A stretch of 64,000 nucleotides of DNA from Rhodospirillum centenum SW (GTDB lineage Bacteria > Pseudomonadota > Alphaproteobacteria > Azospirillales > Azospirillaceae): assembly GCF_000016185.1 (NCBI RefSeq), contig NC_011420.2, positions 2,624,501-2,688,500 on the forward strand, written 5' to 3'. Of this stretch, positions 5,037 to 47,870 are shown in pieces. Below the pieces are notes generated by a model. It was given only the letters and a program-made list of their open reading frames with translations, was not told the origin of the DNA and made no database searches. Positions within the stretch are counted from its first letter, which is position 1; each line of letters starts with the position of its first letter. Made by a program: the position numbers and the translations under genes.

Positions 5037-5531
5037 ATGGCCTCTACGACCGACAGCGCCGGAATCGCCGACATGCCCTCCCGCCTCGAACAGCTCTGCA
5101 TCCAGAAGGGCCTGAAGATGACGGAGCAGCGCCGTGTCATCAGCCGGGTCCTCTCCGATTCGACCGACCATCCCGACGTGGAGCAGGTCTACCGCCGCGC
5201 CATCGAGATCGATCCGCACATCTCGATCGCCACCGTCTACCGCACGATGCGCCTGTTCGAAGAGGCGAACGTGATCGAGCGGCTGGATTTCGGCGACGGC
5301 CGCGCCCGCTACGAGGAGAACCGGGACGAGCACCACCACCACCTGATCGACGTGCAGTCGGGGGAGGTGGTGGAGTTCACGAACGAGGAGATGGAGCGGC
5401 TGAAGGAACGCATCGCCGATGAGCTGGGTTATGAGCTGATCGGCCATCGGCTGGAGCTGTACGGCGTCCGCAAGGACCGGGCGAAGTCGATGAAGACCTC
5501 CTTCAAGCCGCAGCTCCCCCGGACCGAGTGA
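5037..5531 (+). CDS. fur: Fur-family metalloregulator (Fur/Mur type)
   Basis: 164 aa. Fur-family repressors bind Fe2+ or Mn2+ and control metal uptake. The winged helix covers roughly residues 15-95 (MTEQRRVISRVL, HPDVEQVYRRAI, ISIATVYRTMRLFEEANVI). The metal-binding and dimerisation domain carries DEHHHHLIDVQSGEVVEF, the His-rich regulatory site, and ends GYELIGHRLELYGVRKD. There is no C-terminal CxxC zinc site, and the sequence GDGRARYEEN looks more like alphaproteobacterial Fur/Mur than Irr. An internal ATG at 5073 (MPSRLEQ) is an alternative start. A Cys-rich small gene follows 10 bases after the stop and may be co-transcribed. Confidence 0.9.
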   Translation: MASTTDSAGIADMPSRLEQLCIQKGLKMTEQRRVISRVLSDSTDHPDVEQVYRRAIEIDPHISIATVYRTMRLFEEANVIERLDFGDGRARYEENRDEHHHHLIDVQSGEVVEFTNEEMERLKERIADELGYELIGHRLELYGVRKDRAKSMKTSFKPQLPRTE

Positions 5532-47481: not shown

Positions 47482-47870
47482 CGTGTGCCAGAAGAACACG
47501 GATTGCACGGATGCCGGCTGCGCCGGCCACGGATGGCCGCGGATAAGAGGCGGCCCCTCATCCGTGTTCATCCGTGGATATCCGTGTTCATCCGTGTCCT
47601 GTGCTTTCCCGCCTCCCGGCAGCCCTGCCGACCGGCCCGAGTGGCAGGGGAACACGGAGGACACGGATGCCGGCTCCGCCGGCCACGGATGGCCGCGGAT
47701 AAGAGGCGGCCCCTCATCCGTGTTCATCCGTGTCCTGTGCTCTCCCGCCTCCCGGCAGCCCTGCCGACCGGGCGTCCGGCCCGAGTGGCAGGGGAACACG
47801 GAGGACACGGATGCCGGCTGCGCCGGCCACGGACAAGAGCTGGTTCATATCCGTGTTCATCCGTGTCTTA
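47482..47870. repeat. Dispersed-type CACGGATG repeat, three units
   Basis: Three related units begin at 47482, 47641 and 47785 (spacing 159 and 144 bases). Each runs GTGGCAGGGGAACACGGAGG-like, then ACACGGATGCCGGC...GCCGGCCACGG, then CCCCTCATCCGTGTTCATCCG. GGACACGGATG (47659-47669) and CATCCGTGTCC (47725-47735) are perfect 11-base inverted arms, so each unit can fold into a large hairpin. The last unit is shortened and ends ATCCGTGTTCATCCGTGTC near 47866. No protein is encoded. Such CACGGATG/CATCCGTG blocks occur dispersed in several bacterial phyla; the role is unknown. Confidence 0.85.

Follow-up and report, generated by a model that had tools for sequence, protein, structure and literature searches.

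The three hairpin units at positions 47482–47870 of the window, by which we mean the whole 64-kb stretch of DNA analysed (part of a single contig of 4,355,543 bases), are probably non-autonomous copies of a putative mobile element carrying a gene for a GxxExxY nuclease. A complete element of this kind, as present in many bacterial phyla, consists of an array of a 7-nt word, mostly in steps of 8–12 bases, a single GxxExxY gene nearly filling the space and the same array again in inverted orientation. The nuclease would recognise the word array of its own element, probably with several protein copies about one helical turn apart, and might pair the inverted ends, or recognise the hairpin formed by them, before cutting. 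Cutting would then allow spreading of the element or of gene-less copies that share its word. In the genome studied here the gene would have been lost or would never have arrived, leaving the copies as relics, and unequal exchange or slippage may have turned one copy and its flank into the three units of the window and another copy into eight units near lepA.

The hairpin array of the window and its copies in the genome

The sequence-only reading had described a hairpin-forming array of three repeat units, and three such units are present, with CACGGAT on their left side and ATCCGTG on their right side. Their features are as follows.

47495–47598, no strand: unit 1, the most complete copy (words, fold and arm match to the gene-bearing locus L208)
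47513–47527, no strand: side mini-hairpin GCCGGCTGCGCCGGC of unit 1, between left-arm words 2 and 3
47560–47596, minus strand: right arm of unit 1, 37 bases, reading CACGGATGAACACGGATATCCACGGATGAACACGGAT
47599–47649, no strand: spacer 1, duplicated along with the unit
47650–47736, no strand: unit 2, with only two words left in the right arm and perfect outer arms of 12 bases
47669–47683, no strand: side mini-hairpin GCCGGCTCCGCCGGC of unit 2
47737–47793, no strand: spacer 2, the second copy of the duplicated spacer
47794–47867, no strand: unit 3, the most reduced copy
47813–47827, no strand: side mini-hairpin of unit 3

The whole window contains 19 exact CACGGAT/ATCCGTG words, compared with a mean of 9.1 and a maximum of 17 in 100 shuffles, and 14 of the 19 fall within 47497–47865. 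Exact words start at 47497, 47506 and 47528 in the left arm of unit 1, followed by a word with one mismatch at 47538; the steps are 9, 22 and 10 bases, with the side hairpin interrupting the array. The right arm of unit 1 has four exact words with starts spaced exactly 10 bases. The window units are built as arrays of a single 7-nt word in inverted orientation, with most steps being 8–12 bases, and they share with MITEs in general that they are short, gene-less and have inverted ends. Unit 1 (47482–47600) folds as DNA with -38.9 kcal/mol (shuffles -20.6, z -6.6, 0/200 as good) and unit 2 (47640–47737) as RNA with -54.8 (z -4.3, 0/200 shuffles as good). The perfect arms reported for the middle unit were found as well, but with 12 bases instead of 11 (47658–47669 pairs with 47725–47736), and the flank GTGGCAGGGGAACACGG, which had been called conserved, is exact upstream of units 2 and 3 only and diverged before unit 1. 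Unit 3, described earlier as truncated, is the shortest. The surroundings are gene-poor for about 0.6 kb only, as an ORF for greB (47911, minus strand; Pfam GreA_GreB) follows 43 bases beyond the end of the array and the ORFs of groEL and groES (named by eye) lie 1–3 kb to its left.

The spacers of 51 and 57 bases are common to the units, with 98% identity over a stretch of 56 bases that includes the arm end. Thus, tandem duplications of a hairpin plus its flank, and not three insertions, formed the array, and the earlier suggestion that the element amplified in place is not supported if transposition is meant. Searching the genome for the array, we found matches in 15 stretches at eight places, the window's included (40 of the 77 first-look candidates were scored), so that copies are not confined to the window. 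A two-word pattern with up to three mismatches gave 57 matches in the genome and none for the reversed control; 50 of these are located at the eight places and the other seven are isolated, with two or three mismatches each. The seven places outside the window, together with the agreement between the arm and one end of a gene-bearing element (see below), support the proposal of a small dispersed or MITE-like element. One place is a larger tandem array of eight units of ~170 bases (L046, G000:C1:2480634–2481930), which has the end of lepA on one side and an oxidoreductase ORF (named by eye) in convergent orientation on the other. We also observed a third repeated layout with CACGGATCACCACGGATGACACGGAT blocks ~175 bases apart (L048, G000:C1:1949884–1950208).

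GxxExxY genes between inverted word arrays

A family search for PF13366/GxxExxY revealed no such gene in the window's own genome, and the parent element was therefore sought in relatives. The 37-base arm of unit 1 agrees in 36 of 37 bases with the right end of the gene-bearing loci L208 (G128) and L207 (G129), both from the same family as the window's genome, and in 35 bases with an element from Kiloniellales (L194), compared with a maximum of 24 in a control of 20 shuffles that was scored on upstream flanks only. The side hairpin and the four-word arm of unit 1 recur at the same position in gene-less copies of G053 and G062, and the position of the side mini-hairpin recurs in many gene-less copies of Azospirillum. 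The window units are likely to be gene-less, MITE-like relatives of GxxExxY elements and not full members. As for a transposase with matching ends, which the sequence-only reading had asked for, the most likely candidate is the GxxExxY nuclease, which is found in relatives but is absent from the genome itself.

That similar blocks occur in unrelated phyla, as had been noted before, was confirmed by a scan of the genome collection with ATCCGTGTTCATCCGTG, which gave at least 117 stretches; the 80 of these taken as loci belong, judging by their record titles, to Acidobacteria, Planctomycetes, Verrucomicrobia, Chloroflexi, Proteobacteria, Nitrospirae, Bacteroidetes, Spirochaetes, Elusimicrobia and further groups. 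By our own arithmetic ~30 matches to a 17-mer are expected by chance in 257 Gb, so lone matches carry little weight. Beyond the words in the match itself, 60 of the 80 loci have extra exact words within 250 bases, words in both orientations are present in 40, and ACCACGGATGAACACGGATnnACACGGAT followed by a loop and the inverse of ACCACGGATGAACACGGATnnACACGGAT is a frequent layout among the matches listed.

Among the 80 repeat loci the GxxExxY gene was first sought with a regular expression, which was positive in three. In L058 and L102 the gene is bracketed by inverted CACGGAT arrays; L089 has two GxxExxY genes, one with a CACAGAG array on one side and a CTCTGTG array on the other, the other downstream of a CACGGAT array. 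At 5300–5330 of L058 the first word of the array provides the last codons and the stop of the upstream ORF (CAC GGA TGA), so that arrays can form the end of a host gene. The profile PF13366 was found in 42 of 50 repeat-bearing genomes versus 3 of 14 control genomes, the 50 being drawn from the 80 loci, of which the others belong to genomes already represented or exceeded the limit of 50.

An inverted-end score of at least 16 was reached at 49 of 55 gene loci, at 1/55 when scored ~1 kb away and at 0/55 after shuffling, and 7/55 reached this score in direct orientation; the 55 are the fully flanked loci of 60, five being dropped as cut short. In an enlarged set inverted word arrays were present at 71 of 94 distinct GxxExxY (PDDEXK_3, TIGR04256) loci and at none after shuffling. 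This set includes the 55, with 40 more loci fetched, other boundaries scored and two loci dropped as cut short; many of its own-family loci represent one site in related genomes, and 30 of the gene loci come from genomes chosen for the CACGGAT repeat. After thinning to <70% protein identity, 54 of 75 loci had inverted ends. Against the reading as a nuclease element count the 23 of 94 distinct gene loci with inverted ends below the threshold, some of which still carry words by eye, and the 19 of 94 that are at threshold in direct orientation.

The full element has a median outer span of 482 bases and, being this small, is testable in a laboratory strain. The words around GxxExxY genes are most commonly spaced by 9 bases, followed by 10, 8 and 12. 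From the stop codon to the right array the median distance is 7 bases (≤15 bases in 48/71 loci), and an in-frame start codon lies inside the left array in 31/71. The 61 of 71 loci in which three or more CNCNNAN words occur have consensus words of 22 kinds, for example CACGGAT, CACAGAT, CACAGAG, CACCAAG, CACGAAA and CGCCGAT, and the five loci of a single genome (G014) have five different words.

The gene product commonly has about 115–150 residues. The PF13366 profile, whose family is curated as PD-(D/E)XK nuclease, matched 3/3 proteins with E 2e-34 to 6e-41, and D69, E79, K81 and Q93 are invariant in 4/4 aligned GxxExxY proteins. A structure model (pLDDT 69) gave weak matches (Foldseek best E 0.048, VIA-align best Z 7.7) to restriction enzymes, Holliday-junction resolvases and a homing endonuclease (3r3p), and one query for solved structures similar by sequence returned none. 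The weakness of the fold matches counts against the nuclease-element reading. A plasmid or virus as the usual carrier was rejected, as GxxExxY is rare in both collections, with 8 of 72,556 plasmid records (one query protein) and two viral loci (search by two peptide patterns). No match to a window unit was found in the plasmid records, and a 27-base pattern searched for plasmid or virus carriers gave 0 matches. The 17-base repeat was observed in 63 stretches of viral contigs (L384–L446), some of which may be host DNA.

In order to compare words and proteins we used 46 proteins with <70% identity, for which protein identity correlates with word similarity (Mantel r 0.34, 0/2000 permutations), and the correlation is also seen for the 966 between-genome pairs when the own family is treated as one (r 0.31, 0/1000 permutations). 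The 7th base of the word agrees in 92% of 39 pairs with >55% identity, in 75% at 45–55% and in 18–24% below 45%. This covariation, which is a correlation and not binding, is in keeping with a protein that recognises its word, and common descent of the whole element would yield part of it. Repeat and gene also occur together in the own family, where 15 of 82 genomes have the repeat (≤1 mismatch), 39 have the gene (three of these matches being weak, with E about 1e-4) and 13 have both, the gene being present in 13 of 15 repeat-bearing versus 26 of 67 other genomes (Fisher p 0.0008). The arrays without a gene in the window's genome and in G127 count against the nuclease-element reading. An even sample of the class (152 genomes) contained the repeat in 4, the gene in 12 and both in 1, which is not significant (p 0.28) and counts against the nuclease-element reading. 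Repeat-bearing genomes assigned to the Alphaproteobacteria by record title have the gene in 6/8 versus 12/152 (p 2e-5), with the two sets drawn differently.

One site in Azospirillum and the alternatives

To take a closer look at a single insertion we followed a gene-bearing element that lies between two conserved genes in G069 (genus g3, taken as Azospirillum). From the 45 genomes of the genus 42 were read at this site (G052, G057 and G058 are not included) and their states were sorted by reading and by profile matches. The full-length gene-bearing element is present in 19 genomes (L339–L357), a broken gene plus arrays in two (L374, L378), a gene-less form with outer ends remaining or decayed in nine (L358–L366) and a one-sided scar in one (L369); three have no exact word (L370, L371, L373) and eight have other content (L367, L368, L372, L375, L376, L377, L379, L380). 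Element and site can thus be separated from each other, in whichever direction the change went. The site may also be an old, vertically inherited insertion, which counts against the nuclease-element reading. The gene domain is under purifying selection with a median dN/dS of 0.187 (range 0.03–0.38, 82 non-independent pairs), despite which individual full-length copies may be inactive.

Gene-less copies are most abundant in G053, with 65 pattern matches versus 2 genes. In G053, G062, G063 and G067 CACGGAT copies are abundant, yet the similarly spaced gene has CACAGAT ends, and thus the pairing of gene and copies within these four Azospirillum genomes is inexact, a further point against the nuclease-element reading. 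Exactly matching pairs of gene and gene-less copy had been considered for five Azospirillum genomes and were rejected, as the four that were read pair CACAGAT with CACGGAT (the fifth is G080:C16). In three loci (L233, L249, L268) a gene-less copy of the CACAGAT type is nested in one of the CACGGAT type, as if inserted. Several gene-less copies in G062 (L252–L262) have common longer outer flanks accaacctggaagacg / gaccggaaaatgacatt, and some ends may therefore extend further out.

Target-site duplications, proposed earlier as a check, were not clearly found in 33 related gene-less Azospirillum copies, in which the sequence ahead of the first word is about TTTTGA, and the borders of the window copies are blurred by the tandem duplication. 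Comparing L241 with G063 for an exact empty site gave presence and absence, but the intergenic DNA has diverged and offers no clean border, and plasmid records were unhelpful. The missing duplications make homing-like copying a serious rival, in which the nuclease would cut at pre-existing word arrays and the element would be copied in during repair, with no transposition to new sequence. This would agree with the homing endonuclease among the weak fold matches, with a site that alternates between gene-less and gene-bearing states and with the nested CACAGAT arrays. However, many unrelated sites hold gene-less copies, which homing into existing arrays would not produce, and we regard homing as unlikely, although it survives best among the alternatives.

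A somewhat more doubtful possibility is that a GxxExxY nuclease acting as regulator, toxin or defence enzyme uses the arrays as operators or decoys. The inverted arrays on the two sides of the gene would then serve its control, and hairpins without a gene would be remnants or binding sites recruited for other purposes instead of mobile copies. Binding alone would account for the covariation of word and protein, the arrays abut the start and stop of the gene, and the purifying selection on the protein would be expected as well. Nevertheless, autoregulation has no need of an inverted array past the stop codon, gene-less copies outnumber the genes in G053 and are dispersed, and one site exists in gene-bearing and vacant states. 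A role in defence is not suggested by PADLOC either, which assigned no family to 3/4 proteins and a marginal similarity to Cas4 (E 0.0006) to the remaining one.

Less credible again is a REP/BIME-like function of the hairpins in the transcript or in DNA topology (3'-end stabilisation, transcription stop, gyrase sites) with spreading by another enzyme. The stable hairpins of units 1 and 2 and the location close to 3' ends, as for the lepA copy between convergent ORFs and the window array after greB, would suit such a role. Against it, the Y1 transposase of REP elements (Y1_Tnp, PF01797) is absent from the genome, while the identical search was positive in 5 of 14 control genomes, and a RAYT as mobiliser was ruled out for this reason. 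Furthermore, GTAG is absent from both strands of 47482–47870, and CGTC occurs once, at 47773 within spacer 2, leaving the palindrome ends without a tag. The stems of the window array are not followed by a T run, and with Rfam 15 its best score was 28 bits versus a gathering threshold of 76, so that no family was reached; the sub-threshold matches, mostly microRNA models on stems, were rejected as an identity. Elsewhere such arrays also flank an unrelated nuclease gene. A purely local tandem repeat, made by slippage and unconnected to any mobile element, would explain the common spacers, as the last step was tandem duplication, but is hardly credible in view of the seven further places in the genome and the 36/37 arm match to a gene-bearing element.

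Relation to known systems

Extending the nuclease-element reading beyond this genome, we see evenly balanced chances that GxxExxY nucleases and their iterated-word ends represent a separate class of mobile elements that crosses phyla, with CACGGAT, CACAGAG, CACGAAG and similar arrays of many phyla being its ends and gene-less offspring. That in such a class a single PD-(D/E)XK nuclease would move the element by reading a lineage-specific 7-letter word is a proposal to which we give equal weight for and against. If true, one element class would explain repeats of many phyla, for the source of which we found no description in the literature, and the GxxExxY family would gain a role. It would also provide a natural series of protein–word pairs for deciphering the recognition code, as the 7th base already follows the protein. 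In addition, it would be a case of a mobile element that depends on one nuclease alone and not on a transposase of a type known to us.

The earlier statement that such blocks have no accepted function is consistent with our literature search. No link of GxxExxY/PDDEXK_3 to word arrays was found in the portions of the papers available to us, where GxxExxY appears in passing mentions only. CACGGAT-type two-word strings were not found in print by a search that largely left subscription literature aside, the sister-word string was found only in papers whose titles point to unrelated subjects, and none of the matches listed for the bare 7-mer concerns such repeats, as far as title and beginning of the abstract tell.

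The GxxExxY / PDDEXK_3 family (TIGR04256, PF13366) supplies the gene between the arrays, but its family models name the protein only. The nucleases of the Rpn / Transposase_31 type belong to the PD-(D/E)XK group. They have been tied to DNA transfer (PMC5350276, PMC10327210), but are a different protein family, and word arrays are unmentioned in the parts of these papers available to us. As far as the accessible part of its description goes, a minisatellite-bearing MITE from Porphyromonas has ends resembling those of ordinary insertion sequences (PMC4596501).

The MITEs of bacterial insertion sequences are likewise short, gene-less and dispersed, with inverted ends that they have in common with a gene-bearing element. 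They differ in that the gene considered here encodes a nuclease of the PD-(D/E)XK type, each end is a series of 7-nt words and not one block, and a target-site duplication was not found in the 33 related copies. To our knowledge, a PD-(D/E)XK-type nuclease is not among the transposase types known. In the REP/RAYT systems (REPtrons), according to the sections of the paper available to us, small palindromes accompany a linked gene, which has this repeat on its flanks and is believed to mobilise it (PMC3733652). Compared with that account, the window system has no Y1 transposase and no GTAG/CGTC tag at the hairpin ends, it has word arrays instead of a 20–40-base palindrome, and its proposed enzyme is unrelated. 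In summary, among the systems found in these sources, MITE/IS pairs and REP/RAYT systems resemble the elements described here most closely in layout.
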